Shown here: positions 1 through 15,500 of the stretch, one piece after another
How the letters are laid out: every line of letters begins with the position of its first letter
Position numbering within the stretch: the stretch's first letter is position 1
NCBI GenBank assembly: GCA_014218215.1
Contig: CP043652.1
Coordinates: 4,216,001 to 4,280,000, forward strand
Direction of reading: 5' to 3'
Length of the DNA stretch: 64,000 nucleotides
Source: Geodermatophilaceae bacterium NBWT11
GTDB lineage: Bacteria > Actinomycetota > Actinomycetes > Mycobacteriales > Geodermatophilaceae
Translations under genes and position numbers: made by a program
Notes under the pieces: model-generated
Told to the model about the DNA's origin: nothing
Seen by the model: only the letters and a program-made list of their open reading frames with translations
Database searches by the model: none

Positions 1-450
1 GACCGCTACGGCGACGACGATGCCGGGGGTGACGATGGAGATCATCAGCACCGTGCGGGCGAGGCCCGCGACCCGGCCGGTGAGCGCGTGCAGACCGACG
101 GCGGCGGCGGTGCCGACCACCGTGGCGAGCACGGCCGCGGCCGTGGCGACGAACACCGAGTTGCGCAGGGACGTCAGCCAGACCGGGTCGGTGAAGAAGT
201 TCCGGTAGAGGTCCAGGGAGAAGCCCTGCGGCGGGAAGGAGAAGGTCGTCGAGGAGCTGAAGCTCATCGGGATGACGAAGAGCGTCGGCAGGACGAAGAA
301 CAGCGCGACCGCGGCGGCCAGCAGCCGCAGCCACCACGGCACGGCGTCCAGGCCCGGGCGTCGCCCGACCCGTCGCACCCGGGGGGTCTGGGCCCGGCGC
401 GGGGCAGGCCCGTGCGTCCCGACGGTGGGACGCTCGGTGGTCGCGGTCAT
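1..450 (-). CDS. ABC transporter permease, second subunit (partial)
   Basis: Inner-membrane permease of a binding-protein-dependent importer of the spermidine/putrescine type. The ATG overlaps the stop of the upstream permease by 4 bases (ATGA), and the frame stays open to the window edge, so only the N-terminal 150 residues are present. After a basic, Pro-rich N-terminus come a first hydrophobic helix (about residues 44-64), a periplasmic stretch with GFSLDLYRNFF and two more hydrophobic helices. The GFSLDLYxxFF pattern after TM1 is typical of PotC-like permeases. The ATPase and the binding protein are presumably beyond the left edge. The substrate cannot be read from sequence; divergence from a catabolic operon suggests it imports that operon's substrate. 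Confidence 0.85.
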   Translation of the reverse strand, partial: MTATTERPTVGTHGPAPRRAQTPRVRRVGRRPGLDAVPWWLRLLAAAVALFFVLPTLFVIPMSFSSSTTFSFPPQGFSLDLYRNFFTDPVWLTSLRNSVFVATAAAVLATVVGTAAAVGLHALTGRVAGLARTVLMISIVTPGIVVAVAV

Positions 451-1370
451 CGCTTGCCCTCCGGGGTGCTGGTGGCGACGACCCCGATGGCCGACACGGT
501 CCCGCCGAGCCGGTTGGCCCAGGCGACGAGTCCGAGGGTGGCCACGAGGACGACCATGCCGAGGGCGCCGGCGCCCTCGAAGTCCAGGAGCTGGGTGGTG
601 CGGGCGGCCAGCAGCTGGGCCACCAGGGACTCCTGTGGTGTGCCCAGCAGCGCCGGGGTGACGTAGAAGCCGAGGCTGAGGGTGAAGACGAGGATGAGTC
701 CGGCGGTCACACCGCCTCGGGACAGCGGCCAGTAGACCTTCCAGAACGCGACGAGAGGACGCGATCCCAGGCTCTGTGCTGCCAGCAGCAGCCGACGGTC
801 GATGCCGCTCAAGGCGCTGAACAGCGGGAGCACCATGAACGGCAGGAGCACCTGGCTCATGGCGATGACCACGCCGGCCTGCTTGCCGTAGAGCACGACG
901 TCCAGGCCGAAGAGGCCGAAGAAGGAGTCGACGGGCCCCCCGCGCTGGAGGATGAGGATCCAGGCGAAGTTGCGGGCCATCACCGAGGTCCAGAACGGCA
1001 CGAGGACGACGACCAGCAGGAGTGCCCGCATGCGGGGCCCGACGCGGGTCATCACGTAGGCGTAGGGGTAGCCCAGCGCGAACGCGATGACGGTGACCAG
1101 CACCGCCGTCTGCACGGTGCGCCAGAGGACCCGGAGGGTCACCCCGTCGGTGAACAGCTCGGTGTAGTGCTCCCCGGTCAAGGTGGCCGGGGCGCCGATG
1201 CTGCGGAGCAGGCTCTGGCCGAGCGGCAGCACCAGCACGGCGACGACCAGCGCCAGCGCCGGCAGCAGGAGCAACCAGTGCGGCCGTGGTCGGCGACGTC
1301 CTGCTGGGGCCGGCGACTGCTCCGATGACGTGCCCTGTGCGGTGCCTGGTTCGAGAACGGTCTGTGTCAC
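447..1370 (-). CDS. ABC transporter permease, first subunit (PotB-like)
   Basis: Complete 307-residue inner-membrane permease of the spermidine/putrescine/phosphonate-type ABC importer family. A Pro/Arg-rich N-terminus is followed by a TM helix near residues 31-50, a loop with EHYTELFTDGV, and five more hydrophobic segments. The EAA-like loop is around residues 190-215 (AAQSLGSRPLVAFWKVYWPL), which contacts the ATPase. The GTG start is chosen because a strong purine-rich Shine-Dalgarno (GAGAGGAGAGGAA) precedes it. It lies 14 bp after the IclR gene and overlaps the next permease, so iclR-permease-permease form one minus-strand operon. Pairing of two permeases makes a heterodimeric importer likely; substrate unknown. 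Confidence 0.88.
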   Translation of the reverse strand: MTQTVLEPGTAQGTSSEQSPAPAGRRRPRPHWLLLLPALALVVAVLVLPLGQSLLRSIGAPATLTGEHYTELFTDGVTLRVLWRTVQTAVLVTVIAFALGYPYAYVMTRVGPRMRALLLVVVLVPFWTSVMARNFAWILILQRGGPVDSFFGLFGLDVVLYGKQAGVVIAMSQVLLPFMVLPLFSALSGIDRRLLLAAQSLGSRPLVAFWKVYWPLSRGGVTAGLILVFTLSLGFYVTPALLGTPQESLVAQLLAARTTQLLDFEGAGALGMVVLVATLGLVAWANRLGGTVSAIGVVATSTPEGKR

Positions 1371-1384
1371 GGGTTCCTCTCCTC

Positions 1385-2179
1385 TCAGCCCGACACGGTC
1401 GAGCTGAGCGTGGCGGCGGCGCCGCGCAGGGCGCGCACCTGGTTGGTCGCCCCGGATGCCCGGTCGACCATCGTGGTGGTGCCGATCAGCGCCATCGCAG
1501 CCTGGACGTCGTAGGTGGCCAGCACGGGGACGGCGACGGAGGCCAGGCCGGCCCTGCCCAGGTCGGCCCAGGCGACGCGCTGCTGGCGGACCTCGTGGAG
1601 CACCTGTCGCTCGACCGCGGCCTCGGCGTCGGTGAGGCGGGCGTGCGCGCGGGTGACGGCCGTGGGGTCGGACTGGAAGGCCAGCAGGGCCCGGGTCTGG
1701 GCGGCCCGCACCTCGAGCACCGTGCCGATGCGGACGGTGATGAGGATGGTGCCCTGCAGTGGCTCCTCGACGAGGGTGACGACGGCCCCCGTGCGTCCCA
1801 GGAAGCTCAGCACCGTGGTCAGACCGGTCGTGTCCGACAACTGACGCATGATCGCCGGCGCCGTGGTGAGGATCTGCTGGCGGACCGAGGTGAGCGCGGA
1901 CAGCTGGTCGAGCAGCGGCCCGGGTCCACCGGTCGCACTGAGGAAGCCCGAGCGCCGCAGGGACTGCAGGTAACGGTGCGCCGTCGTCCTGTTGAGTCCC
2001 AGCCGCTCCGCGACGAGGGGCGCGCTGAGGGTGCCGGTGTCCTGGTCCAGCAGCGCCAGGATGTTCGCGGCCCGGTCGATCGCCTGGATCAGCCCGCCCT
2101 CGGACTCGCTCGTGTTCGCGGCCGCGGCGTGACCAGGACCCCGCGACGGTCCGCCTGCCGGGTGACGCAGCGTCTCCAC
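1385..2179 (-). CDS. IclR-family transcriptional regulator
   Basis: A 264-residue IclR-type regulator. The N-terminal winged helix-turn-helix spans roughly residues 30-80 (LNRTTAHRYLQSLRRSGFL is the recognition part), followed by the C-terminal effector-binding domain. The frame is open further upstream to a TTG at 2248, but the GTG at 2179 is preferred because GAGAGGAGG lies just 5' of it; the TTG also falls inside the putative operator. It is co-oriented with the two permeases and divergent from the catabolic operon at 2359. By family habit it probably represses or activates that operon in response to a pathway intermediate. The effector cannot be deduced. Confidence 0.85.
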   Translation of the reverse strand: METLRHPAGGPSRGPGHAAAANTSESEGGLIQAIDRAANILALLDQDTGTLSAPLVAERLGLNRTTAHRYLQSLRRSGFLSATGGPGPLLDQLSALTSVRQQILTTAPAIMRQLSDTTGLTTVLSFLGRTGAVVTLVEEPLQGTILITVRIGTVLEVRAAQTRALLAFQSDPTAVTRAHARLTDAEAAVERQVLHEVRQQRVAWADLGRAGLASVAVPVLATYDVQAAMALIGTTTMVDRASGATNQVRALRGAAATLSSTVSG

Positions 2180-2232: not shown

Positions 2233-2273
2233 TTTGTTCATCATGCAATCACCGGTTTCACATGACGAACAAA
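2233..2273. promoter_or_regulatory. Inverted repeat, probable IclR operator (site 1)
   Basis: Thirteen-base arms TTTGTTCATCATG (2233-2245) and CATGACGAACAAA (2261-2273) are inverted with one mismatch, separated by 15 bases. They lie in the 179-bp intergenic region between the IclR start and the catabolic operon. Position and symmetry fit an operator for the adjacent regulator; binding itself is inferred. Confidence 0.6.
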
Positions 2274-2303
2274 GTTGCTGGCGCCCCTAGACGCGACCCG
2301 GCC

Positions 2304-2344
2304 GTTGTGCATAGCGTGAACTCCAAGCTCACGATACGAACAAC
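2304..2344. promoter_or_regulatory. Second related inverted repeat and likely operon promoter
   Basis: GTTGTGCATAGC (2304-2315) and GATACGAACAAC (2333-2344) form a weaker inverted repeat (9 of 12). The right arm resembles the right arm of site 1 (CGAACAA core). A TAnnnT hexamer, TAGCGT (2312-2317), could be the -10 of the catabolic operon. The Shine-Dalgarno GGAGG at 2346-2350 directly follows, so a protein bound here would cover the start of transcription. Functional assignment is inferred. Confidence 0.45.
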
Positions 2345-2358
2345 GGAGGCACCAGGGC

Positions 2359-3282
2359 ATGACCACCACGGAGGCCGGTACGTCACCGTCGCCGGCACTG
2401 CTGCAGGTCCTCGACGGCACCGTCGACCTGCACTGCCACTCGGGTCCCAGCCCGTTCCCCCGCCGACTCGACCACGTCGAGGCGTCCCACGACGGGGCTC
2501 GCATCGGGATGCGCGCGATCCTCGTGAAGTCCCACCACCACAACACCGCCATGGACGTGTTGGCGATGGGGCCGCAGCTGGCGCAGGCGCCCACCCCGGT
2601 CTACGGCGGGGTCGCGATGAACTCCGAGGTGGGCGGGATGAACCCGTCGGCCGTGGCCGTGGCCGTGCTGATGGGCGGGCGTTGCGTCTGGGGCCCGACC
2701 GTCTCAGCCGGTCAGCACCTGCTCGCCCACCAGCACGACGACGGTTTCCCCAACAACACCGGCAACCTCTACGAGGAGGAGGTGTCGGTCTTCGACTCGA
2801 CCGGCGCGGTCTCCCAGCAGGCCGACCTGGTGACCAGGCTCGTCTCCGACGCCGGGATCCTGCTGACGGGCGGTCACCTGGACGGTGAGTCCATGTCCGC
2901 CTTCTTCGCCACCGCAGCCCGCAACGGGGTGAAGCGGCTGCTGGTGCACCACCCGGACTACATCATCAACGCCTCGGAGACCGCGATCGAGGAGATGCTG
3001 GGGCACGGTGCGTTCATCGAGCACGAGCTGTCGATGTACCACCCCGACGTCGCCGCCCCGCACTGGCCGATCGAGCAGCTCGTGGACTGGATCCACAAGA
3101 TCGGCCCGGAGCGCACGGTGCTGGACTCCGACCTCGGCCAGGTCGGCAACCCCCTGCCGGTGGACGCCTACCTGCTGATCGTCCAGCAGCTGCTCGACCA
3201 CGGCATCAAGGCCGAGGACATCCGGCAGATGACCTGTCGCAACACCGCGTTCCTGCTGGGCCTCGAGGAGACCAACCGGTGA
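2359..3282 (+). CDS. DUF6282 family protein, amidohydrolase-like
   Basis: First gene of the catabolic operon, 307 residues. The N-terminal DLHCHSG (His25 and His27) followed by KSHHHNT near residues 57-63 and a late DSDLGQ (about residue 257) resemble metal ligands of the amidohydrolase/PHP-like TIM barrels, so a metal-dependent hydrolase or lyase acting in the cytoplasm is likely. I recognise the sequence as the DUF6282 type, for which no reaction is established. The ATG has a good Shine-Dalgarno (GGAGG, 8-base spacing). The stop overlaps the BKACE gene start by 4 bases, implying co-translation and a shared pathway. Confidence 0.8.
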   Translation: MTTTEAGTSPSPALLQVLDGTVDLHCHSGPSPFPRRLDHVEASHDGARIGMRAILVKSHHHNTAMDVLAMGPQLAQAPTPVYGGVAMNSEVGGMNPSAVAVAVLMGGRCVWGPTVSAGQHLLAHQHDDGFPNNTGNLYEEEVSVFDSTGAVSQQADLVTRLVSDAGILLTGGHLDGESMSAFFATAARNGVKRLLVHHPDYIINASETAIEEMLGHGAFIEHELSMYHPDVAAPHWPIEQLVDWIHKIGPERTVLDSDLGQVGNPLPVDAYLLIVQQLLDHGIKAEDIRQMTCRNTAFLLGLEETNR

Positions 3283-4226
3283 AGCGGGCGGAGAAGGTCG
3301 TCATCACGACCGCGGTGACCGGCTCGGTCAACGTGCCCTCGCAGAGCCCGCACCTGCCGCTCTCGGCCGATCAGGTGGTCGCCTCCGCGCTGGAGGCGAT
3401 CGAGGCGGGGTCGGCCGTGGTGCACCTGCACGCCCGGCACCCCGACGGCCGGCCGGCGTTCGAGGCCGAGGTCTTCGAGCAGATCGTCCCGCGCATCACC
3501 GAGGCCACCGACGTCGTCGTCAACATCACCACCGGCGGTTCCTCGGCGATGACCATGGAGGAGCGGCTGGCCGGCGCACTGCGCTTCGAGCCCGAGCTCG
3601 CCTCGATGAACATGGGCTCGATGAACTTCGTGTACTCGGGGATCGCGGACAAGGTCACCGCGTGGCAGCACGACTGGGAAGAGCCCTACGTGCGCAACAC
3701 CTGGTCGCACCCCTTCATCAACACCTTCGACCGGATCGAGCACACCCTGCGCGTGCTCGGGGACCGCGGGACCAAGTTCGAGTTCGAGTGCTACGACATC
3801 GGCCACCTCTACTCCTTGGCGCACTTCGTGGACAAGGGCCTGGCTGAGCCGCCGTTCCTGGTCCAGGGCGTGTTCGGGATCCTCGGCGGCATCGGGGCCG
3901 ACCACGAGAACCTCGCGCACATGGTCCGCATCGCCGACAAGCTCTTCGGCGACGACTACGCCTTCTCCGCCTTCGCCGCCGGCCGCAGCCAGTTCGAGTT
4001 CGGCACCCACAGCGCCTGGCTCGGCGGGCACGTCCGGGTCGGCCTGGAGGACAGCCTCTGGATCGGCAAGGGCCGCCTCGCCGAGAGCAACGCCCAGCAG
4101 GTCACCAAGATCCGCGCCGTCCTCGAGGACATGGGCAAGCAGATCGCCACCCCCGACGACGCCCGCGCCCAGCTCGGGCTGCGCGGTCGGACCACCCCCA
4201 CCACCGACAGGAGCGCCCGCGCATGA
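3279..4226 (+). CDS. BKACE: beta-keto acid cleavage enzyme (DUF849)
   Basis: A 315-residue enzyme of the 3-keto-5-aminohexanoate cleavage family. Known members condense a beta-keto acid with acetyl-CoA and release acetoacetate plus a new acyl-CoA, using Zn2+. Visible hallmarks are the N-terminal ITTAVTGSV, the VVHLHAR metal motif (His49, His51), NITTGG and a central FEFECYDIGHL segment. Length is normal for the family. Overlapping genes on both sides (ATGA) put it in the catabolic operon. The CoA-transferase at the end of the operon would activate the acetoacetate released here, a coherent link. The actual beta-keto acid is unknown. Confidence 0.88.
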   Translation: MKRAEKVVITTAVTGSVNVPSQSPHLPLSADQVVASALEAIEAGSAVVHLHARHPDGRPAFEAEVFEQIVPRITEATDVVVNITTGGSSAMTMEERLAGALRFEPELASMNMGSMNFVYSGIADKVTAWQHDWEEPYVRNTWSHPFINTFDRIEHTLRVLGDRGTKFEFECYDIGHLYSLAHFVDKGLAEPPFLVQGVFGILGGIGADHENLAHMVRIADKLFGDDYAFSAFAAGRSQFEFGTHSAWLGGHVRVGLEDSLWIGKGRLAESNAQQVTKIRAVLEDMGKQIATPDDARAQLGLRGRTTPTTDRSARA

Positions 4227-5140
4227 CCACCTACGCAGCCGACGACATCCGCTCGACACTGGCCCCCGTGGCGCCGACCCGCACCGTGGACGCCGGCACC
4301 CCCATCCGGCCCTCGCAGTGGGTGGAGTTCCTGGCCCTGCCGCCCACCGAGACCACCCGCGCCGGCAGCCGGACCTGGATCGCCCGGGCCGCCAACATGG
4401 TGGTCGCCTACACCGACGCCCGCGCCGGGGACGTGTTCAGCCGGACCGGCCAGCCCGACGAGTACCTGGTGCTGGTGCACTCCGACAGCAGCGCCATCCA
4501 GGTGCAGGCCGGCGGTGCCACCCGCGCTGTCGACGACGAGGCGCTGGTGGTCGTCCCTCCCGGGGACAGCGAGATCCGGGTACAGACCGACGGCCCGCTC
4601 ATCCGGGTCTTCTCCGTCGTCGCCGAGGACCTCGCCGCAGCCGCACTCAACGCCGAGGTCTACGCCGAGCCCGACCCCCGGGCGACGCCGATGGTGCCCG
4701 GGCCGGACCCCGTCGGCGGTTTCGCGCTGCGGGTCTACCCGCTGGCCGAGCACCCCGTCGTGGAGGGACGGTTCGGGCGGGTCTTCCGGACGACCAACCT
4801 GATGGTGAACTTCCTCGCCGAGGAGCCCACCCCGCGCCCGCCGCACAAGCTGTCCCCGCACCACCACGACGACTTCGAACAGGTGTCGATGGCGGTCAAG
4901 GGCCGCTTCGTGCACCACATCCGCTACCCGTGGGGCCCGGACTCCGCGCAGTGGCGACCCGACGAGAGCCGGGAGATCGCCACACCGTCGATCTGCGTCA
5001 TCCCCCCGCCCACCGTGCACACCACCCAGGGTGTCGGCCCGTACCAGCAGCTCATCGACCTGTTCTCCCCGCCCCGGGCGGACTTCGCCGCCTCCGGCTG
5101 GGTGGTCAACGCCGAGGACTACCCCCGCCCCGCCTCGTGA
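4223..5140 (+). CDS. Cupin-domain protein (double cupin)
   Basis: A 305-residue cytoplasmic protein with two cupin-like halves. The C-terminal half carries HHHDDFEQVSMAVKGRF (about residues 213-229) followed by a later PPTVHTTQG, matching the two His-containing motifs of metal cupins; the N-terminal half has the barrel pattern without an obvious His set. Such proteins are isomerases, dioxygenases or sugar-acid enzymes, so the reaction stays open. It overlaps BKACE upstream (ATGA) and the aldolase downstream (GTGA), implying a role in the same pathway, perhaps isomerising or oxygenating the substrate before cleavage. Confidence 0.75.
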   Translation: MTTYAADDIRSTLAPVAPTRTVDAGTPIRPSQWVEFLALPPTETTRAGSRTWIARAANMVVAYTDARAGDVFSRTGQPDEYLVLVHSDSSAIQVQAGGATRAVDDEALVVVPPGDSEIRVQTDGPLIRVFSVVAEDLAAAALNAEVYAEPDPRATPMVPGPDPVGGFALRVYPLAEHPVVEGRFGRVFRTTNLMVNFLAEEPTPRPPHKLSPHHHDDFEQVSMAVKGRFVHHIRYPWGPDSAQWRPDESREIATPSICVIPPPTVHTTQGVGPYQQLIDLFSPPRADFAASGWVVNAEDYPRPAS

Positions 5141-5955
5141 GCCCCCGGCGCAGCCTGCTGCGTGCGGCCCTCGCCGACACGTCCCGGCCGGCTCTGGGCA
5201 CCTGGCTGAAGATCGCCTCGACCGAGCTGCTGGAGCTCGTCGCGATCGCCGGGTTCGACTTCGTCGTCCTGGACCTGGAGCACTCCCCGATGGACCTGGA
5301 GTCCGCGTCCGGGCTCATCGGCGTCGCCCGGCACGCGGGACTGCCCGCGGTGGTCCGGGTGCCCGACCTGCACCCCGGTCTCGTCCAGCGGGTCCTCGAC
5401 GCCGGCGCCGAGGGCGTGATGGTGCCGCACGTGGACACCGTCGAGCAGGCGCAGGCTGCGGCCGCCGCGGTGCGCTTCCCGCCACGAGGCACCCGCGGCG
5501 TCGGCGCCACCAGCCGCGTGGGGGACTGGGGGGCGCTGCCACTGGAGGAGTACCTCCGCTACGGACAGGAGGAGGTCGTGCTCATCGCCCAGGTCGAGAG
5601 CGCCGACGCCGCCCGGCAGGCCGCCGCGATCGGCGGGGTGGACGGCGTCGACGCCCTCCTCGTCGGGGCCGCCGACCTCGCAGTCAGCCAGGGCGCCGCC
5701 GTCTCCGATTTCGTCGTCCAGGACCTCATCGCCGAGGCGGTCCGCGGCGCCCGGGCTGCCGGGGTGCCGGTCGGCAACGCCGGCGGGGCCACCGCCGAGG
5801 CCGTTCGGGCCGCTCTGGAGACCGGGTTCGGGTTCACGATGCTCAGCAACGACGCGAGCCTGTTCGGTGCCGCGGCCACGGCCGCGGTGCAGGCCGCCCG
5901 GAGCGTGCCGCTCCCCACGCTCGACCCCCACCCCACAGCAGGAAGGACGTCATGA
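5137..5955 (+). CDS. HpcH/HpaI-type aldolase
   Basis: A 272-residue class II pyruvate-dependent aldolase of the HpcH/HpaI family, which cleaves 4-hydroxy-2-oxo acids to pyruvate (or relatives) and an aldehyde. Visible are LDLEHSPMD with the catalytic His (residue 49), VPHVDTVEQA, the metal-binding Glu in AQVES and the Asp in VGAADLA. The GTG start at 5137 overlaps the cupin stop (GTGA). The open frame reaches further back, but that part is out-of-frame cupin sequence. The aldehyde product would be a substrate for the ALDH or Fe-ADH later in the operon. Confidence 0.88.
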   Translation: MSPRRSLLRAALADTSRPALGTWLKIASTELLELVAIAGFDFVVLDLEHSPMDLESASGLIGVARHAGLPAVVRVPDLHPGLVQRVLDAGAEGVMVPHVDTVEQAQAAAAAVRFPPRGTRGVGATSRVGDWGALPLEEYLRYGQEEVVLIAQVESADAARQAAAIGGVDGVDALLVGAADLAVSQGAAVSDFVVQDLIAEAVRGARAAGVPVGNAGGATAEAVRAALETGFGFTMLSNDASLFGAAATAAVQAARSVPLPTLDPHPTAGRTS

Positions 5956-6722
5956 CCCACCCCACGCCACACCGCCCCCTGGAGGGGCGGGTGGTCCTCG
6001 TCGTCGGCGCCAGCAGCGGCATCGGCGCCGACGCCGCTCGACTGCTCGCCGAGGACGGCGCCCGCCTCATGCTCGTCGCCCGTTCCGCCGGCCCCCTGGC
6101 CGCGATCACCGACGAGCTCACTGCCGCCGGCCACGACGTCGCCTCCAGCACCGGCGACGTCTCCCGGGCCTGGGACGTCGCCCGGTTCGTCGACGCGACC
6201 GTCGAGCGGTTCGGGCGGCTGGACGGCGCGCTGAACAACGCCGCGGCGACCCAGGCCGGCCGGCTGGACCAGGTCTCCGAGGCCGACTTCGACCAGCTGA
6301 TGGCCGTCAACGTCAAGGGCACCTGGCTGTGCCTGCGCGAGGAGGCCAGGGTCATGGTCGCCCAGGGGCAGGGCTCCATCGTCAACGTCAGCAGCATCGG
6401 CGGACTGCGCGGCAGCTCCGGCATGGGCGCCTACCAGGCCTCCAAGCACGCCGTGATCGGCTTGACCAAGACCGCCGCGCACGACCTGGGACCGCTCGGC
6501 GTCCGGGTCAACGCCGTCGCCCCCGGCCCCACCGAGTCCCCGATGCTGGACGCCACCCGGCGGGCGATCCCCGGCGGCGTCGAGGCCCGCGTCGCAGCGA
6601 CGCCGCTGCGCAAGACCGGGACCGGTCGGGACGTCGCGGCCGCGGTGTCCTTCCTGCTCGGCGACCGGGCGGGGCACCTGTCCGGCGTCGTCCTCCCCGT
6701 GGACGGTGGGTTCCTTGCCTGA
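5952..6722 (+). CDS. Short-chain dehydrogenase/reductase
   Basis: A 256-residue classical SDR, NAD(P)H-dependent oxidoreductase. The Rossmann motif VVGASSGIG is near residues 18-26, the NNAA motif near residue 97, and the catalytic Ser and Tyr-x3-Lys are in VNVSSIGG and YQASK. The C-terminal GVVLPVDGG is typical. The ATG overlaps the aldolase stop (ATGA), and the end overlaps the Fe-ADH gene by 17 bp. Most likely it oxidises a hydroxyl of the pathway substrate to a ketone, which would create the beta-keto acid needed by BKACE. That link is inferred. Confidence 0.88.
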   Translation: MTHPTPHRPLEGRVVLVVGASSGIGADAARLLAEDGARLMLVARSAGPLAAITDELTAAGHDVASSTGDVSRAWDVARFVDATVERFGRLDGALNNAAATQAGRLDQVSEADFDQLMAVNVKGTWLCLREEARVMVAQGQGSIVNVSSIGGLRGSSGMGAYQASKHAVIGLTKTAAHDLGPLGVRVNAVAPGPTESPMLDATRRAIPGGVEARVAATPLRKTGTGRDVAAAVSFLLGDRAGHLSGVVLPVDGGFLA

Positions 6723-7929
6723 CTCCCTCAGCACCGTCGGCACGCTGCGGCTGCCGGCCCGGGTGCACGTCGGGTACGGCGCCCGCCACCAGCTGCCCGA
6801 GGTCCTCGCCCTGCACGGCCGCCGGGTGCTCGCGGTCGTCGACCCCTTCCTGCTGGGCACACCGGTGCTCACCGAGACGGTGGACCGGTTGACCGCGGTC
6901 GGCCTCGAGGTGCACGTGCACGCCGACGTCACCCCGGAGCTGCCCGTCGACAGCCTGGTCGCCGGGGCCGAGGTGGCCCGCGGGTTCGGCGCAGACGTGG
7001 TGCTGGCCATCGGCGGCGGCAGCGCACTGGACGCGGCGAAGGTCCTCGCCCTGCTGTGCACCCACGAGGGCCCACTGAGCCGGTACTACGGCGAGAACCA
7101 GGTGCCCGGTCCGGTGCTGCCGGTCGTCGCGGTCCCCACCACCGCGGGGACCGGTTCCGAGGTCACCCCCGTCGCCGTCGTCTCCGACCCCGACCGGGAG
7201 CTCAAGGTCGGGATCTCCAGCCCGTTCCTGGTGCCCGTCGCCGCCGTCGTCGATCCCGAGCTGACCCTCGGCGCCCCCGCCCCGGTGACCGCGTTCTCCG
7301 GGATCGACGCCCTGGTGCACGCCGTCGAGTCCTACACGGCGCGGTCCCTGGAGGTGGACTGGACGTCGCCGCTGCCGGTGTTCACCGGCCGCAACGCCCT
7401 GGCCGAGCCGCTGTCCCTGCAGGCCGCGGCCCACCTGGGCCCCTGGCTGCCGGTGGCCGTGGCCCAGCCGGGCAACAGGGTGGCCCGGGAGGAGGTGGCT
7501 CGCGGGGCGCTGCTGGCCGGCGTCGCGTTCGGGTCCACCGGCACCCACCTGTGCCACGCCCTGCAGTACCCGATCGGGGCGATGACCAAGACCCCGCACG
7601 GCCTGGGGACCGGACTGCTGCTGCCCTACGTGATGGACGCCGTCCGTCCGGTGGCCGCAGACCGGCTCGCTGCCCTGGGTGCGGCTCTGGAGGGCATCGC
7701 CCCGGCCGAGTCCTCCGCCGAACGCACCCGGGCCAGGGTCGCGGAGATGAACGTCGCGATCGGCGTCCCCGCCGACCTCGCCGCCATCGGGATCACCCGG
7801 GACCAGCTGCCCCGCATCGTCGAACTGGGCCTGCGTTCGGCCCGACTCCTGGCCATCGCCCCGGTGGACCCCACGCCCGAGCTCCTGCTCGACGTCCTCG
7901 AACACGCCTACGCAGGGAGCGCCTCGTGA
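6706..7929 (+). CDS. Iron-containing alcohol dehydrogenase
   Basis: A 407-residue group III (Fe2+-dependent) alcohol dehydrogenase. The nucleotide motif IGGGSALDAAK, the hallmark PTTAGTGSEVTPVAVVSD and the metal ligands in GIDALVHAVES and in LCHALQ...KTPHGLGTG are intact. Such enzymes interconvert short alcohols or hydroxy acids and aldehydes, or act as maleylacetate reductases. The GTG at 6706 overlaps the SDR end by 17 bp; a TTG at 6715 is the alternative start. The stop overlaps the ALDH start (GTGA). It may reduce or oxidise the aldehyde or alcohol generated in this operon. Confidence 0.87.
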   Translation: MGSLPDSLSTVGTLRLPARVHVGYGARHQLPEVLALHGRRVLAVVDPFLLGTPVLTETVDRLTAVGLEVHVHADVTPELPVDSLVAGAEVARGFGADVVLAIGGGSALDAAKVLALLCTHEGPLSRYYGENQVPGPVLPVVAVPTTAGTGSEVTPVAVVSDPDRELKVGISSPFLVPVAAVVDPELTLGAPAPVTAFSGIDALVHAVESYTARSLEVDWTSPLPVFTGRNALAEPLSLQAAAHLGPWLPVAVAQPGNRVAREEVARGALLAGVAFGSTGTHLCHALQYPIGAMTKTPHGLGTGLLLPYVMDAVRPVAADRLAALGAALEGIAPAESSAERTRARVAEMNVAIGVPADLAAIGITRDQLPRIVELGLRSARLLAIAPVDPTPELLLDVLEHAYAGSAS

Positions 7930-9362
7930 CCGACACCCCGCTGCACACCGACCTCTACATCGACGGCAGGTGGCGCCCGGGATCCGGTGGCGAGCGTCTG
8001 GACGTCCTGGACCCCGCCGACCTCTCCGTCATCGCCGACGTAGCGGTGGCCACCGAGCAGGACTGCATGGACGCCGTCGACGCCGCGGCTGCGGCCGCCG
8101 AGGGCTGGGCGGCGACCGCCCCGCGCGTGCGCAGCGAGCTGCTGCGCACCGTCTTCGACATCCTCACCGCCGAGGCCGAACAGCTCGCGGAGCTGATGGT
8201 CCGGGAGAACGGCAAGTCCTGGGGTGACGCCATCGGCGAAGCCGCGTACGCCACCGAGTTCTTCCGCTGGTTCGCCGAGGAGGCCGTCCGCGTGCCCGGG
8301 GACTACCGGCTCTCGCCGGCGGGGGACAAGCGGATGGTCGTGGACCGCCAGCCGATCGGGGTGTCGCTGCTCATCACCCCGTGGAACTTCCCGGCCGCGA
8401 TGGCCACCCGCAAGCTCGCCCCGGCGCTGGCCGCCGGCTGCACCACGATCCTCAAGCCCGCGCCGGAGACCCCGCTGACCGCCGGCTACGTCGTGGACGT
8501 GCTGCACCGGGCCGGGGTGCCCCGCGGGGTGGTCAACCTGGTCATGCCGACCCCGCCGGACGTCCCGGTGCGCGCCATGCTCGACAGGCCGGAGGTCCGC
8601 AAGCTGTCCTTCACCGGCTCCACCGAGGTCGGTCGCGCGCTCCTGCACGCCTGCGCCGACTCGGTGGTCAGCGCCTCCATGGAACTGGGTGGCAACGCGC
8701 CCCTCGTCGTCCTCCCCGGCGCCGACCTCGAGGAGGCCGTGGCCGGTGCGCTGCTGGCCAAGATGCGCAACGGCGGCGCCGCCTGCACGGCAGCCAACCG
8801 GTTCTACGTGCACGACTCCGTGCACGACGAGTTCGTGGCACGGATGGACACCGCCCTGGCTCAGGTCACGGTCGGACCAGGGGTCGACCGCCGCAACACC
8901 CTGGGCGCGCTGGTCTCCACCGGCGAGCGGGACAAGGTGGCCTCGCTGGTCGAGGAGGCGGTGGCCGAGGGCGCGACCGTCGTCCGCGGCGGGACGTCGC
9001 ACGAGGTCGGTGCCTTCTACGACGCGACGCTGCTGACCGGGGTCCGGCACGGGTCGGCGATCACCCGCACCGAGGTCTTCGGTCCGGTGACCCCCGTCGT
9101 CCGCTACAGCGACGTGGACGAGGCCGTGGCGATGGCCAACGACACCGAGTTCGGGCTCATGGCCTACGTCTTCGGCGAGGAGCGGGAGGCCATGGCGGTC
9201 GCTCGGCGACTGGAGTCCGGGATGGTCGCGGTCAACCGCGGGGTCGTCAGTGACCCGGCCGCACCCTTCGGCGGGGTGAAGCAGAGCGGGCTGGGCCGGG
9301 AGGGGAGCTCCGAGGGGATCTTGGAGTTCCTCGAGGAGAAGTACATCGCGCTGACCGCATGA
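7926..9362 (+). CDS. Aldehyde dehydrogenase, succinate-semialdehyde type
   Basis: A 478-residue NAD(P)+-dependent aldehyde dehydrogenase. Key features are the ITPWNFP segment, KPAPETPL, the FTGSTEVG cofactor loop, the general base Glu in MELGGNAP and the catalytic Cys in NGGAACTAANR. The arrangement is closest to succinate- or glutarate-semialdehyde dehydrogenases, but specificity cannot be fixed by eye. The GTG start overlaps the Fe-ADH stop. It likely oxidises the aldehyde released by the HpaI-type aldolase to an acid for central metabolism. A 35-bp gap with a new Shine-Dalgarno separates it from the CoA-transferase. Confidence 0.88.
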   Translation: MTDTPLHTDLYIDGRWRPGSGGERLDVLDPADLSVIADVAVATEQDCMDAVDAAAAAAEGWAATAPRVRSELLRTVFDILTAEAEQLAELMVRENGKSWGDAIGEAAYATEFFRWFAEEAVRVPGDYRLSPAGDKRMVVDRQPIGVSLLITPWNFPAAMATRKLAPALAAGCTTILKPAPETPLTAGYVVDVLHRAGVPRGVVNLVMPTPPDVPVRAMLDRPEVRKLSFTGSTEVGRALLHACADSVVSASMELGGNAPLVVLPGADLEEAVAGALLAKMRNGGAACTAANRFYVHDSVHDEFVARMDTALAQVTVGPGVDRRNTLGALVSTGERDKVASLVEEAVAEGATVVRGGTSHEVGAFYDATLLTGVRHGSAITRTEVFGPVTPVVRYSDVDEAVAMANDTEFGLMAYVFGEEREAMAVARRLESGMVAVNRGVVSDPAAPFGGVKQSGLGREGSSEGILEFLEEKYIALTA

Positions 9363-9397
9363 TCGCCGACCCCCCAGCACCCCGGAGGAAGGCGGAC

Positions 9398-10171
9398 ATG
9401 GACAAGGTCGTTGCCAGCACAGCCGAGGCGGTGGCCGACATCGGTGCCGGCTCGTCGTTGGCGGTGGGTGGTTTCGGGCTCTGCGGGGTGCCGATCAAGC
9501 TGATCGACGCGCTCCTGGAGCAGGGCGCGGACGGGTTGACCACGATCAGCAACAACTGCGGGGTGGACGACGCCGCGCTCGGGGTGCTGCTCTACGCCGG
9601 CCGGATCGCCAAGACGATCTCCTCCTTCGTGGGCGGCAACAAGGAGCTGGCCCGGCTCTACCTGTCTGGCCAGCTCGACGTCGAGCTGACCCCGCAGGGC
9701 ACGCTCGCCGAGCGGCTGCGCGCCGGCGGCTGCGGGATCCCCGCCTTCTTCACCCCCACCGGCGTCGGCACGATGGTCGCCGACGGCGGGATCCCGGTGC
9801 GCTACGACGCCGACGGGAACGTCGTGCTGGTCAGCGAGCCCAAGGAGACCCGGGACTTCGGTGGGCAGGACTTCGTGCTGGAGACCGCGCTGACCGCCGA
9901 CTTCGCGCTGGTCCGAGCTGCGGTCGGTGACCGGCACGGCAACCTGGTGTTCCACGAGTCCGCGCGCAACTTCAACCCGCTGTGCGCGATGGCCGGCACC
10001 ATCACCATCGCCGAGGTGGAGCGGCTGGTCGAGCCCGGGGAGATCCTCCCGGAGTCGATCCACCTGCCCGGGGTCTTCGTGCAGCGCGTGGTCGAGGTCG
10101 GTGTCGAGGGCAAGGACATCGAGAAGCGCACCACCCGCCCCCGCCCCGCCGCGCAGATCGAGGAGGCCTGA
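9398..10171 (+). CDS. scoA: 3-oxoacid CoA-transferase, subunit A
   Basis: Alpha subunit (257 residues) of a succinyl-CoA:3-ketoacid CoA-transferase. It shows the N-terminal VGGFGLCGVPIKLID, the ISNNCG motif and GGNKELARLYLSGQ. A 13-codon longer start at 9359 would overlap the ALDH stop, but the ATG at 9398 has GGAGGAAGG at good spacing and gives the usual family N-terminus. With the B subunit it moves CoA from succinyl-CoA to acetoacetate. Acetoacetate is the by-product expected from BKACE, which gives the gene a clear job in this operon. Confidence 0.9.
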   Translation: MDKVVASTAEAVADIGAGSSLAVGGFGLCGVPIKLIDALLEQGADGLTTISNNCGVDDAALGVLLYAGRIAKTISSFVGGNKELARLYLSGQLDVELTPQGTLAERLRAGGCGIPAFFTPTGVGTMVADGGIPVRYDADGNVVLVSEPKETRDFGGQDFVLETALTADFALVRAAVGDRHGNLVFHESARNFNPLCAMAGTITIAEVERLVEPGEILPESIHLPGVFVQRVVEVGVEGKDIEKRTTRPRPAAQIEEA

Positions 10172-10174
10172 CCG

Positions 10175-10843
10175 ATGGCTCTGACCCGTGACCAGCTCGC
10201 CGCCCGCGTCGCCCTGGACCTGCAGGACGGCCAGTACGTCAACCTCGGGATCGGCATGCCGACCCTGGTCCCGAACTTCATCCCCGACGGCGTGCACGTG
10301 GTGCTGCAGTCGGAGAACGGCGTCCTCGGTGTCGGCCCCTACCCCTTCGAGGGCGAGGAGGACCCGGACCTGATCAACGCCGGCAAGGAGACGATCACCC
10401 TGCAGCCCGGGGCGAGCTTCTTCGACTCGGCGCTGTCGTTCGGGATGATCCGCGGCAAGCACATCGACGTCGCCGTCCTGGGCGCCATGCAGGTCGACCC
10501 GCGCGGTGACCTCGCCAACTGGCTGATCCCCGGCAAGATGGTCAACGGCATGGGCGGGGCCATGGACCTCGTCCACGGAGCCCGCGCGGTGATCATCATG
10601 ATGGAGCACGTCGCCCGCGACGGATCCCCCAAGCTCGTCGAGGAGTGCACCCTGCCGCTCACCGGCAAGGCCTGCGTCGACCGGATCATCACCGACCTCG
10701 CCGTCGTCGACGTCACCGGGACCGGCTTCCTGCTGCGCGAGACCGCCCCAGGCGTGTCCGTCGAGGACGTCGTGACAGCCACCGGCGCACCGCTCGCGGT
10801 CGCCGACGACGTCCGCGAGATGGCCGTGGGCGCACCTGCGTGA
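10175..10843 (+). CDS. scoB: 3-oxoacid CoA-transferase, subunit B
   Basis: Beta subunit (222 residues) carrying the catalytic glutamate in the [10 protein letters not shown] motif (about residues 48-57), which forms the gamma-glutamyl-CoA thioester, plus GIGMPTLVP near the N-terminus and the MGGAMDLV loop. It starts 3 bp after scoA with a Shine-Dalgarno (GGAGG) inside the scoA end. The family length is 205-225 residues, so it is complete. It is the last gene of the operon. The resulting acetoacetyl-CoA would enter thiolysis encoded elsewhere. Confidence 0.9.
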
Positions 10844-11174
10844 CTCGGGTGGGCCCGGGCCGTGCTGTCAGCGGTCGAGTCCGACCGTCCGGGTCGCCCG
10901 GACCGCTGGACCGCCTGCGGACCCTGCTGGCTCGCCGGCCAGGCAGTCGGACTCCCGGGACGTCCTCGAGCACTGCGGGTCGCGCGGACTCGAGCTGGGT
11001 GTTCGTCGGAGCTGCCGAGGGGACGATCGTCTTCCGCTCCCGCTGCGGGTCGGACCTGATGGTCAACGGGGTGGTCATCCCGGGGTCCGACGGCCGGCCC
11101 GGGGCCGGACTGCCCACCGGTCCGTCGTCCTGACACCGGGCTGGCGCACGAGCGCGACCGAGACGGTGCCCAGG
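10844..11174. other. Gene-poor stretch between convergent genes
   Basis: About 330 bp between the CoA-transferase operon and the minus-strand methyltransferase. Short open frames exist on both strands, but none has a recognisable domain, a Shine-Dalgarno or convincing codon use. The first 30 bases are rich in GGGCCC-type symmetry that could end transcription. I see no gene here. Confidence 0.5.
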
Positions 11175-11945
11175 TCAGGCCCGGCGGACGGCCACCACCA
11201 GCGTCGGCCGCACCGCTCCCGCGGACAGCAGCGCTCCCATCCGCCCGGACTGTTGGGAGGAGCGGCGGAAGCGGGGGTCCGCGCCGTGCCGGCGCTCCAT
11301 CTCGGCGTCCACCGCGTCGGCCGCGTCGTCCCAGCCGGGTGGGTTGTCGTCCAGGTCGGCGACCGCTCGGTCCACCACGTCGAAGCCCGCAGCCCCGAGC
11401 AGGTCGTCCAGGTCGTCGTCGGTGGGGAACGAGTTCCCCTCCGGCGCGGGAGCGGGCAGCGGGTCGACCGCCTGCACGAAGACGAGCAGCCCCAGCCGTC
11501 CTCCCGGGCGCAGGACCCGGTGCAGCTCGGCCAGCGCGCCGGCCTTGTCGTCGGTGGTGCAGAGGACCCCCAGGCTCCAGGCCGCCGCGGTGACGCCGTC
11601 GAGCAACGGGAGCGACTGCCCCATCGCGACGGCCGACGGCAGCCCGAACAGGTGGCGGGAGGCGTGCACCGCACCGGCCATGGGCTCCAGGCAGACCGGC
11701 CGCACCTGCCGGTCACCGGCCGCCCACGCGGCCGGGCCGCCGACCCCCGCCCCGGCATCGACGAGCAGGTCACCCGGGTGCAGGGCCATGCGGTCGGCGA
11801 GCCAGCGCAGTGACCCGACGCTGCCCGAGCCCCGGCAGCCCGCAGGGACGGCGTGCCCCGGGCCGAGCACGCGTGCGGCCTCCTCGGTCCACGCCGCGGT
11901 GACGTCGAACTCGTCCTCCATCGCGGCGCTGTCCAGTTCGCTCAT
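11175..11945 (-). CDS. Class I SAM-dependent methyltransferase
   Basis: A 256-residue cytoplasmic methyltransferase. The SAM-binding motif I is LLVDAGAGVGGPAAWAA, followed by an acidic residue in CLEPM and by LHRVLRPGGRLGLLVF (post-motif region), so the Rossmann fold is intact. The ATG is preceded by GGGAGGAA and overlaps the stop of the MTHFR-like gene (ATGA). Pairing with a folate-type enzyme suggests one-carbon transfer, for example methylation coupled to methyl-group recycling; the acceptor is unknown. The open frame runs much further upstream only as an out-of-frame shadow. Confidence 0.8.
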   Translation of the reverse strand: MSELDSAAMEDEFDVTAAWTEEAARVLGPGHAVPAGCRGSGSVGSLRWLADRMALHPGDLLVDAGAGVGGPAAWAAGDRQVRPVCLEPMAGAVHASRHLFGLPSAVAMGQSLPLLDGVTAAAWSLGVLCTTDDKAGALAELHRVLRPGGRLGLLVFVQAVDPLPAPAPEGNSFPTDDDLDDLLGAAGFDVVDRAVADLDDNPPGWDDAADAVDAEMERRHGADPRFRRSSQQSGRMGALLSAGAVRPTLVVAVRRA

Positions 11946-12970
11946 GCTTGTTCCTCCCGGATCCGTCGTGCCACCTCGGCCTTGACCCGTGCCCCGTCCA
12001 GCCCCCCGCGGTCGGCGGCCCGTCCGGACAGGTTGACCCCGACCACCCCGGGCACCGAGAGCAGTGCCCGGGCCTCGGCGACGGCTGCGGCGATTCCGGC
12101 CTCGACCGGGTCCGGGGCGGCGAGCACCCGTTCGACAGCGGTGCCGTCCAGGTGCAGGCCGGGGAAGCGCTGCAGCGTCCGTGCCGACGGCTCGTCGCTG
12201 TAGACCGCGACCGAGGCCAGGAACGGCAGCGTGGCCCCGGCTGCCCGGGCCGCTCCCACGAAGGCCGCCACCTCCGCCGGACCGGACACGTGGTTGAGCA
12301 CGCAGAGGGCGGCGCCGGCCTGCTGCTTGAGTGCCACCCGCGCCGGTCGACCGGCGGTCGGCGGGGTCTGCGGCGACTCGGGGACGGCGGCGCTCAGCCC
12401 GGCCCGGGCGGCCAGTGCGGTGAGCCGGGGCCCGTCGAGGTCGAAGACCTGGGTCACCCCCGGTCGCACACCCGGTCCCCGGCCGTCGCCGGTCACGCAG
12501 AGCACGCCGTCCACCCCGACAGCCGCGAGACCGGCCAGCTCCTGCTCCAGGACGAGCTGGTTGCGGTCCCGGCAGGCCAGGGTGACCCAGGGCCGACCGC
12601 CGGCGGCGACCACCTCGGCGGCGACCAGGGTCGGAGGCAGGTCGGGTTGGTCCTGGTGCTCGGCGGTGAGCAGGCCGTCGCTCACCCCGGCCAGCACCGC
12701 CACCACCGACCGCACCGAGGCCAGGTCGCCCGGCGCAGCAGTGAGGTCGGTGAGGACGACGGGCCCGCGCTGGGCGCGGGCCAGCAGACCGCCTGGCCGC
12801 GGTGCGGGCGCGGCGACCGGCGTGGACCAGCCGGGCGCCGGCTCGCTGAGGAAGGGGCACGGGTGGTCGGCGAGCTCGCACCGGCCGTCGTCGCGCACGC
12901 CCCCGCAGGGCCCGAAGACCATCCTCTTGGGGCAGCCGATCCGGGCGGCGTCCACGGCGGTCGTCGTCAC
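11942..12970 (-). CDS. Methylenetetrahydrofolate reductase-like protein with Cys-rich N-terminus
   Basis: A 342-residue protein. The N-terminus has CPKRMVFGPCGG, then RCE and HPCPF, the cysteine pattern usually found in the MTHFR C-terminal-type (MetV-like) domain, which may bind a metal or Fe-S cluster. The rest looks like a degenerate MTHFR TIM barrel, with VLCVTGDGRGPG as the likely flavin/folate loop. In other bacteria such proteins take part in C1 metabolism and demethylation. Translational coupling to a SAM methyltransferase strengthens a C1 role. True reductase activity is uncertain, as catalytic residues could not be aligned by eye. GTG start. Confidence 0.7.
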   Translation of the reverse strand: MTTTAVDAARIGCPKRMVFGPCGGVRDDGRCELADHPCPFLSEPAPGWSTPVAAPAPRPGGLLARAQRGPVVLTDLTAAPGDLASVRSVVAVLAGVSDGLLTAEHQDQPDLPPTLVAAEVVAAGGRPWVTLACRDRNQLVLEQELAGLAAVGVDGVLCVTGDGRGPGVRPGVTQVFDLDGPRLTALAARAGLSAAVPESPQTPPTAGRPARVALKQQAGAALCVLNHVSGPAEVAAFVGAARAAGATLPFLASVAVYSDEPSARTLQRFPGLHLDGTAVERVLAAPDPVEAGIAAAVAEARALLSVPGVVGVNLSGRAADRGGLDGARVKAEVARRIREEQA

Positions 12971-13093
12971 CCCCAGGCGCTGCCCACGGACCGGGGGTGC
13001 GAACCGCCCGACGCCGCCGGCCTCGCGAGGGAGGTGGGCCTCGGCGAGGTGTCAGCGGTCCTCGGCGCCGGCCACGAGCGGGGCCGGTGCCGC

Positions 13094-13723
13094 TCAGGCA
13101 GTGCCGGGCAGCGACCAGGTGCGCAGGGCCTCGAGGCAGTGGACGAGGTGGTCCCGGGCGTCGCCACCCGTGGCCGCCCAGGTCTCCACGGCCAGTCGGT
13201 TGGCGGTCACGACGAGGGTGGCGCCGAAGCGGAGGGGGAGTGGGTCGAGGGCGGCGGGGAGCCGGGGTGCCAGCAGGGGCACCAGCCCGTGGACGCACTC
13301 CTCGTGCATGCGCAGCCACACGGAGAGCAGTTCGGGTTCGCCGACGACCAGGCGCACCCGCTCGGCCTCGCGTGCACCGTCCGGGCCCTCGAAGGTGACG
13401 GCGAGGGCGTCCACGAGGGCGGCGCCGAGCTCGTCGAGGTCGTGTCGGCGCGAGGGGATCGAGGCGACCGCGGCCAGGTAGTCCTGCAGGCCCTCCCGGA
13501 GCACCGGGGCGAGCACGTCGGCCTTGTTGGCGAAGTACCGCTGCACGGTGCGGGTGCTGACCTCCGCGGCGGCGGCGATGTCGGCCAGCGTCGTCGTCGC
13601 CACCCCGTCACGCAGGAAGAGCTCGGCCGCCACCGCCGAGATCTCCGTCGCGGTGTGCAGACGGCGGCGCTCGCGCAGCGAGGGCCGGCGGTCGCGTTCG
13701 TCGGGGCCCGTCACGGCGTCCAC
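13094..13723 (-). CDS. TetR-family transcriptional regulator
   Basis: A 209-residue TetR/AcrR-type repressor. The helix-turn-helix is at about residues 40-68 (TTTLADIAAAAEVSTRTVQ, then RYFANKADVL). The C-terminal ligand domain is diverged as usual. It starts at GTG 13723 and diverges from an SDR gene 99 bp away. The intergenic region holds two related symmetrical elements over the likely SDR promoter, so it presumably represses the two SDR genes until a lipophilic alcohol or ketone is sensed. The ligand is unknown. Confidence 0.85.
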   Translation of the reverse strand: MDAVTGPDERDRRPSLRERRRLHTATEISAVAAELFLRDGVATTTLADIAAAAEVSTRTVQRYFANKADVLAPVLREGLQDYLAAVASIPSRRHDLDELGAALVDALAVTFEGPDGAREAERVRLVVGEPELLSVWLRMHEECVHGLVPLLAPRLPAALDPLPLRFGATLVVTANRLAVETWAATGGDARDHLVHCLEALRTWSLPGTA

Positions 13724-13740
13724 CGTAAGACCCGTCCTCG

Positions 13741-13773
13741 TGTCGTGTTGCGCCTTCTTGTCGCTTTGCGACA
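13741..13773. promoter_or_regulatory. Repeated TGTCG-N3-TGCG elements, probable TetR operator
   Basis: TGTCGTGTTGCGCC (13741-13754) and TGTCGCTTTGCGACA (13759-13773) repeat at an 18-bp offset; the second is a perfect 6-3-6 palindrome. TTGTCG (13758-13763) with TAGGTT (13782-13787), 18 bp apart, makes a plausible -35/-10 for the SDR gene, so a bound repressor would cover the -35. Assignment to the adjacent TetR is inferred. Confidence 0.55.
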
Positions 13774-13822
13774 GGCCGGGCTAGGTTGTGACCGGGAACA
13801 CCGGACGGTCGAGGGAGCGCAC

Positions 13823-15500
<1,678 letters not shown>

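Follow-up and report, generated by a model that had tools for sequence, protein, structure and literature searches.

A conserved nine-gene actinobacterial operon with a putative hydrolase-hydratase-aldolase module of DUF6282, a bicupin and an HpaI-type aldolase

What would an operon degrade that joins a beta-keto acid cleavage enzyme (BKACE) to a protein of the family DUF6282, a two-domain cupin (bicupin) and an HpaI-type aldolase? The question is raised by nine genes at 2359-10843 of the window, by which we mean the whole stretch of 64,000 nucleotides (nt) analysed here (4216001-4280000 of the single-contig 4.59-Mb genome of Geodermatophilaceae bacterium NBWT11; G+C 68-79% in 2-kb steps). Our reading is that the core of the operon may be a hydrolase-hydratase-aldolase module with upstream oxidations, in which BKACE would finish a 3-oxo acid, and that the whole would form part of a regulon controlled by an IclR-family regulator. 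Drawing on gene families, predicted models and analogy with known pathways, we give this reading a probability of roughly 0.47.

The genes and their order are observed directly. All nine, read as open reading frames (ORFs) from the sequence, lie on the plus strand, and six of the eight junctions are 4-nt overlaps. The other two are an 8-nt overlap between the genes of the short-chain dehydrogenase (SDR) and the iron-containing alcohol dehydrogenase (Fe-ADH), if the latter starts at 6715, and a 3-nt gap between the CoA-transferase genes ScoA and ScoB (Table 1). Curated Pfam cut-offs are passed by eight of the nine proteins (PF19799, PF05853, PF03328, PF13561, PF00465, PF00171 and, twice, PF01144); the bicupin has no Pfam match at E 0.001. 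An earlier note on this DNA had described a nine-gene catabolic operon joined mostly by 4-base overlaps, next to an IclR gene and ATP-binding cassette (ABC) permeases. This description holds, the second permease lying just beyond the window. Position 2233, where that note began the locus, falls on an inverted repeat in the IclR/DUF6282 intergenic region.

Table 1 Features of the operon and of the adjoining divergent genes, with window positions
Feature	Position	Strand	Match or basis	Remarks or putative role
ABC permease (PermA)	447-1370	-	PF00528 34.9 bits	first gene after IclR in divergent importer operon
IclR-family regulator	1385-2179	-	PF09339 and PF01614 above cut-off	
Candidate operator 1	2233-2273		inverted repeat TTTGTTCATCATG / CATGACGAACAAA; 13-nt arms, 92% complementary	
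Candidate operator 2	2302-2346		inverted repeat; 21-nt arms, 81% complementary	overlaps promoter-like block
DUF6282	2359-3282	+	PF19799 197.2 bits	predicted metal-dependent hydrolase, amidohydrolase-type fold; putative lactone/pyrone ring opener
BKACE	3279-4226	+	PF05853 323.5 bits; NF053538 467.8 bits; nearest PDB sequence 3e02	beta-keto acid cleavage enzyme
Bicupin, 305 aa	4223-5140	+	fold of predicted model, conserved residues, gene partners	putative 2-oxo-enoate (dienedioate) hydratase
HpaI-type class II aldolase	5137-5955	+	PF03328 110.2 bits	putative 4-hydroxy-2-oxo acid retro-aldolase
SDR	5952-6722	+	PF13561 194.5 bits	short-chain dehydrogenase
Fe-ADH	6715-7929, start possibly 6706	+	PF00465 160.4, PF25137 102.2 bits	iron-containing alcohol dehydrogenase
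Aldehyde dehydrogenase (ALDH)	7926-9362	+	PF00171 492.2 bits; TIGR01780 498.1, below cut-off 646.35	nearest succinate-semialdehyde type
ScoA	9359-10171	+	TIGR02429 241.9 bits, above cut-off	3-oxoacid CoA-transferase subunit A
ScoB	10175-10843	+	TIGR02428 330.1 bits, above cut-off	3-oxoacid CoA-transferase subunit B

A DUF6282 search of genome contigs returned 10 loci, 70-83% identical, in Modestobacter (two), Paractinoplanes, Micromonospora, Pseudosporangium, Streptomyces, Virgisporangium, Microbacterium, Acrocarpospora and an Actinomycetales metagenome-assembled genome. With the window and two genomes of the same family (L033 and L035; L numbers are our handles for loci) they make up a set of 13 species (own, L023-L033 and L035), in which L034 and L036, counterparts of L023 and L024, are not counted again. 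The order DUF6282-BKACE-cupin-HpaI is kept in all 13. Fe-ADH is present in all 13 and ALDH in 12 (the sequence of L025 stops before it), both standing apart from the main gene run in L032, and SDR is present in 11, being unmatched in L028 (runs of N) and L030. ScoAB, taken by the earlier note as part of the system, lies beside the cluster in the window's own genome only (1/13), though in Microvirga (L073) a CoA-transferase pair adjoins the DUF6282/bicupin/HpaI run; as a core gene it was rejected. The nine-gene operon is real, and these counts show that its conserved gene order is not due to chance. In Microbacterium elymi (L030:10909-12748) BKACE and bicupin are matched only in pieces, two each, either as a degraded copy or by sequence errors, and the surroundings gave no match to the SDR or to close importer genes.

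The distribution of the cluster is patchy. Some DUF6282 is present in 28 of the 112 genomes of the own family; among the 20 loci listed, four are about 80% identical and the others about 26-35%, and DUF6282 was found in none of the 8 other listed genomes of the own genus. A phylum sample gave a DUF6282 match in 22 of 396 genomes and a full-length bicupin in the own genome only, two other genomes giving 20-bit partial matches.

Which of these genes form the core was assessed on plasmids. A tblastn search of 72,556 plasmid records with bicupin and DUF6282 as queries found the former in 27 records and the latter in 46. By hand count, 17 of the 27 bicupin records also carry DUF6282, compared to 0.017 expected; since the records are mutually related, the P value of this comparison serves as a guide only. 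The listed places of the two lie within 10 kb in 16 of the 17 and far apart in NZ_CP147998.1. We opened 15 of the 27 bicupin loci (L060, L063, L064, L071, L073, L076-L082, L127-L129) and 20 of the 46 DUF6282 records. A pyruvate-type aldolase is present in each of the 15 (HpaI in 14, RraA type in L077) and DUF6282 in nine, while four of the six loci lacking DUF6282 have an extradiol-type dioxygenase (L076, L078, L080, L129). The dioxygenase of L076 is BphC (415.4 bits, NCBIfam cut-off 366); that of L078 is of LigB/MhpB type (Pfam LigB; 251.7 in NCBIfam, below 291); those of L080 and L129 are of VOC type by Pfam only, the latter below NCBIfam cut-offs. In L129 it is accompanied by a p-hydroxyphenylacetate 3-hydroxylase-type oxygenase (688, cut-off 650), a SnoaL_4 protein, an annotated alpha/beta hydrolase, BKACE and HpaI. 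Two of the four dioxygenase plasmids lack the usual FAH-type hydratase (PF01557), which lies 13 and 41 kb off in the other two; for the 13 bicupin loci with annotation, the stretch shown includes no gene annotated as such. These partners indicate that the wider unit is DUF6282 with bicupin and HpaI, to which BKACE was apparently added in some lineages, and not a system centred on BKACE as the earlier note had it. The BKACE of L081 is of 3-oxoadipate type and stands in a pca operon. The Mameliella alba bicupin (L071:5274-6172) is split in the annotation into two hypothetical proteins; the gene seems to be broken.

The predicted model of the bicupin (predicted local distance difference test, pLDDT, 72) has two cupin domains with a metal-type motif and resembles quercetinase, oxalate decarboxylase and ureidoglycine aminohydrolase. 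The HxHx3E...H motif is kept only in the C-terminal domain, together with several conserved arginines; 16 aligned sequences share H213, H215 and E219 without exception and H266 almost without (L028, which reads through N as X, was kept in alignments and left out of that of the model). A sequence search of the PDB gave no firm relative, the best having E 0.0095. In three DUF6282-HpaI clusters (L061, L062, L072) a single-domain cupin replaces the bicupin. That of L062 aligns with the C-terminal metal domain at E 4e-6 in a single comparison, and with the single-domain cupin as query, 394 genomes of the class yielded 4 distant matches. Between the dioxygenase step before it and the 4-hydroxy-2-oxo acid aldolase step after it, hydration is the only step left, and the bicupin would therefore occupy the slot of the lower-pathway hydratase. 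In loci where DUF6282 stands in for the dioxygenase, its hydrolysis would yield an open-chain acid of the same kind. We disfavoured a role of the bicupin itself in ring cleavage as a dioxygenase, since four loci already have an extradiol-type dioxygenase near it.

DUF6282 (PF19799) is found in bacteria and haloarchaea in the plasmid search listing. Its predicted model (pLDDT 73) has a TIM-barrel amidohydrolase fold and matches phosphotriesterase-like lactonases, dipeptidases and dihydroorotases (Foldseek, VIA). LigI was not among the 50 structural matches listed, which excludes nothing. The PDB sequence search gave no firm relative, the best plausible one, renal dipeptidase (E 0.016), ranking below designed proteins. 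D23, H25, H27, P30, K57, H59, G92, G93, G106, H173, G190, H198, E221, D258 and G260 are invariant in all 60 aligned sequences, a set in which the window is included and some genomes are represented by more than one locus, after L057 (short) and L001 and L037 (own genome again) were dropped. Among them is the amidohydrolase signature of HxH after strand 1, later His residues and a C-terminal Asp (H25, H27, H59, H173, H198, D258), whose roles we assume to be those of the amidohydrolases. A gene of the DHO_dh family (PF01180) precedes DUF6282 in five plasmid clusters (L061:6921-7982, L063:6920-7978, L062, L072, L081); the scores of the L061 and L063 proteins fall well short of the cut-offs set for named dihydroorotate dehydrogenases.

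A second setting of DUF6282 bears on its place in a pathway. In eight loci (L069, L089-L094, L104) it stands with catechol 2,3-dioxygenase-type, PIG-L, CHA-aldolase and DUF1932/HIBADH-type genes. In Thermus oshimai (L069:6363-11026) the run is catechol 2,3-dioxygenase-type, HIBADH/DUF1932, CHA aldolase, PIG-L and DUF6282, and it is the same in the seven others. By analogy the run resembles a meta pathway of protocatechuate type in which DUF6282 fills the slot of LigI. DUF6282 is not of the family PF04909, which we take to be that of LigI, PF19799 being its only Pfam match at E 0.001. No PF04909 gene lies within 9 kb of DUF6282 in the seven of the eight loci that were tested; three of the seven have one at 9.1-12.3 kb, and the sequence of L104 spans only 6.7 kb. 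In L110, L112, L116, L118, L121 and L126, CHA-aldolase and HIBADH-type genes lie about 4-5 kb from DUF6282, with a transporter-like ORF between them in two of these loci by our ORF reading.

The HpaI protein aligns with solved HpaI-type aldolases (7v8t) and keeps the EH, R, E and D positions, which are presumably its metal and catalytic residues. BKACE belongs to its family by a wide score (cut-off of PF05853 24.8 bits) and also passes NF053538, the model of 3,5-dioxohexanoate:acetyl-CoA acetone transferase (cut-off 430). The latter is passed by the BKACEs of unlike settings as well (L078 517.8, L129 470.8, L082 536.4 bits) and therefore marks a clade, and we dropped it as a substrate call; the match hints at neutral 3,5-dioxo acids as substrates. 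Promiscuity in the BKACE family is stressed in the accessible part of a PLoS Comput Biol paper (PMC4922564). That BKACE releases acetoacetate, as the earlier note proposed, is likely. The own genome has two further BKACE homologues outside the NF053538 clade, at 1298835-1299635 (143 bits) and 115276-116139 (no match at 1e-30).

The divergent importer operon, which begins with PermA, continues just outside the window with a second permease, an ATPase, a binding protein, a second IclR gene and a SnoaL_4 gene; SnoaL_4 genes also stand beside the bicupin in L076, L079, L080 and L129. An ABC importer lies beside the cluster in 12 of the 13 species. PermA is matched at 70-85% identity in all of the 12 other species loci except L030, and IclR is matched in 10 of 13 (not in L027, L029 and L030). 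The IclR/DUF6282 intergenic region gave five inverted pairs, among which the two candidate operators of Table 1 stand out. A GTTCA..ATGCAA / TGAAC pattern related to operator 1 recurs in most of the upstream regions when those of the 13 species are aligned, L030 and L032 lacking it, and the TGAAC, GAACA and TnGAC block around operator 2 is invariant in all 13. The promoter-like block consists of TAGACG (2288-2293) and TAGCGT (2312-2317); consensus scans for sigma-70 promoters and for terminators gave no site. To judge from the sequence, the operon is most likely a catabolic regulon under IclR control. Beyond the importer operon, ORF reading suggests a 1076-aa protein like a fused biotin carboxylase and carboxyltransferase (L002:3405-6635) adjoined by an acyl-CoA synthetase-like frame. 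On the 3' side, window 11100-15500 holds opposite-strand methyltransferase- and TetR-like frames and then two plus-strand SDR-like genes, also by ORF reading, all outside the conserved cluster.

From these observations we infer the reactions, the order of the oxidations and the substrate class as follows. The importer would bring in a small cyclic or lactonisable hydroxy acid or alcohol. Fe-ADH and ALDH would oxidise a primary alcohol, perhaps a hydroxymethyl group, to the carboxylate, a task that may fall in L061 and L062 to the GMC oxidoreductase and succinate-semialdehyde-type dehydrogenase found in their DUF6282-HpaI clusters, and SDR would oxidise a lactol or secondary alcohol. DUF6282, as a metalloenzyme of amidohydrolase fold, would then open a lactone or pyrone with water, and the bicupin would hydrate the resulting 2-oxo-enoate to a 4-hydroxy-2-oxo acid. 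HpaI could cleave the latter by retro-aldol reaction into pyruvate and a 3-oxo acid (or a semialdehyde, which would pass to ALDH). BKACE would turn the 3-oxo acid and acetyl-CoA into acetoacetate and an acyl-CoA, and in the window's genome ScoAB would activate the acetoacetate.

Several observations weigh against this reading. The alignments behind the models of DUF6282 and bicupin (pLDDT 73 and 72) hold 11 and 9 sequences of close relatives, which were used because searches of viral contigs for both found no relative. One DUF6282 homologue, L067, departs at four conserved residues (one row in a 24-sequence set). No HpaI, bicupin or BKACE appears, at the threshold used, in 38 stretches around other DUF6282 homologues; the link to HpaI and bicupin therefore holds for a subfamily, and DUF6282 has several settings. 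Both DUF6282 and an extradiol dioxygenase are missing from two of the 15 bicupin loci (L077, L079). In L064, which does have DUF6282, a gene annotated as a YgiD-type dioxygenase follows HpaI at a distance of about 2 kb, and in L071 and L128 the hydratase step could be taken by fumarate hydratases, whose genes are annotated there. BKACE is in the bicupin stretch in only four of the 15 (L078, L082, L127, L129). In the literature accessible to us, with subscription journals mostly outside the search, no characterised enzyme of DUF6282 or of this bicupin family was found. Nor was a paper found that names DUF6282 or PF19799 or joins BKACE with the DUF6282-bicupin-HpaI module, in agreement with the earlier note, which had called the system uncharacterised and DUF6282 a family with no assigned reaction.

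The earlier note had the SDR make a beta-keto acid, BKACE convert it into acetoacetate and an acyl-CoA and ScoAB salvage the acetoacetate. Worked out on the logic of deoxyribonate catabolism, the SDR would oxidise a beta-hydroxy acid and DUF6282 would be an upstream lactonase, with HpaI and cupin handling a side product. An SDR, a BKACE and a lactonase do cooperate in deoxyribonate catabolism according to the accessible part of PMC6365646, and the SDR, present in 11 of 13 species, stands together with BKACE in Pseudosulfitobacter (L082). However, the strongest links, bicupin with HpaI and DUF6282 with HpaI, are left without a use, the SDR is unmatched in L028 and L030 as described above, and the required glycerate kinase is not among the nine genes (in P. 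simiae, too, it is encoded elsewhere, and the search here covered the nine genes). We consider this explanation unlikely and do not favour the SDR as maker of the beta-keto acid, the HpaI retro-aldol product being probably a simpler source of the 3-oxo acid for BKACE.

The importer raises a different thought, namely that what DUF6282 hydrolyses is the cyclic amide, of dihydropyrimidine, hydantoin or lactam type, of a nitrogen-containing substrate, opine-like or like gamma-aminobutyric acid (GABA), and that the rest degrades the carbon skeleton. The binding protein has as its nearest solved relatives in the PDB proteins named for the binding of polyamine/GABA, agropine and mannopine, dihydroorotase and hydantoinase are also among the matches of the DUF6282 model, a DHO_dh-family protein adjoins DUF6282 in L061-L063, L072 and L081, and RidA and aminotransferase genes lie near L072. 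Yet the nine genes include no aminotransferase, deaminase or amidase family, and the extradiol and PIG-L/CHA-aldolase contexts would seem to need no nitrogen step, so that we find the proposal rather improbable. The NF053538 score, together with a BKACE-family enzyme that acts on triacetate in phloroglucinol breakdown (accessible part of PMC10470551), could point to a triacetate-type substrate: DUF6282 would open a 4-hydroxy-2-pyrone to 3,5-dioxohexanoate, and BKACE and ScoAB would yield two acetoacetyl units. As NF053538 marks a clade that is passed in other settings (L078, L129, L082), and HpaI, bicupin, Fe-ADH and ALDH would be left without a role, this is a very slim prospect.

The hydrolase-hydratase-aldolase reading gives one specific, testable enzyme role each to DUF6282 and to the bicupin, a protein without a Pfam name, and it explains a BKACE gene beside a pyruvate aldolase. 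More tentatively, DUF6282 could be a new family of pyrone or lactone ring openers and the bicupin a second cupin-fold hydratase, making up with HpaI a modular, oxygen-independent actinobacterial route that BKACE finishes. If this is true, many clusters on plasmids and chromosomes could be annotated accordingly, and ring-degradation pathways would have cupin hydratases and DUF6282 hydrolases as interchangeable parts.

Four known systems share parts of this scheme, each compared here by the accessible portion of its source. The deoxyribonate pathway (PMC6365646) has an SDR, BKACE, a lactonase and acetoacetate activation in common with the operon; its text there mentions no cupin, and its glyceryl-CoA product leads to a glycerate kinase, outside the nine genes. 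Phloroglucinol breakdown in Clostridium scatologenes (PMC10470551) ends with the BKACE-family triacetate acetoacetate-lyase and likewise has a dehydrogenase, a CoA transferase and a hydrolytic C-C cleavage by a metal enzyme, which we count as a likeness. Its ring opener is of the 'cyclase' family and not DUF6282, with no cupin in that text; by Pfam, no ring-opening hydrolase of 'cyclase' family is among the nine operon genes.

The DUF6282 neighbours PIG-L, which we assume to be the family of GalB, and CHA aldolase in Thermus and other genomes are parts of the protocatechuate/gallate type. In the lower pathway of protocatechuate 4,5-cleavage and gallate, LigI, LigJ or GalB, and LigK or GalC act in turn (accessible part of PMC12314914), and the lactonase-hydratase-aldolase order is that proposed here. 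The operon has bicupin and HpaI where that pathway has LigJ/GalB and LigK, and unlike it has no extradiol dioxygenase among its nine genes. The same source proposes MgaD, of the SnoaL_4 family, as a tautomerase of the ring-fission product; the SnoaL_4 proteins of the own importer operon and of L076, L079, L080 and L129 belong to the same family.

The closest likeness in chemistry is with the end of riboflavin/lumichrome catabolism in Nocardioides simplex, reconstituted in vitro (Sinha et al. 2025, PMC12746152). According to the accessible part of that paper, the cobalt-dependent pyrone hydrolase LumW, the cupin dienedioate hydratase LumY and the retro-aldolase LumX turn 4-methyl-6-carboxypyrone into pyruvate and acetoacetate. 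That pathway and the putative module share metal-dependent opening, cupin hydration and retro-aldol cleavage to pyruvate and a 3-oxo acid, a likeness in chemistry. The sizes count against the comparison: LumY is a protein of 16 kDa, compared to the 305-aa bicupin of the operon, and LumW is one of 40 kDa. The ring of the Lum pathway is supplied by oxygenases, of which the operon has none, and BKACE and Fe-ADH were not met in the part of the description covered. The earlier note's candidate new degradative system thus stands as a conserved, uncharacterised operon, whereas the hydrolysis-hydration-retro-aldol chemistry of the putative module has a precedent in riboflavin breakdown. By chemistry of the Lum type, a 4-substituted 6-carboxypyrone would give pyruvate and R-CO-CH2-COOH, which BKACE could cleave.

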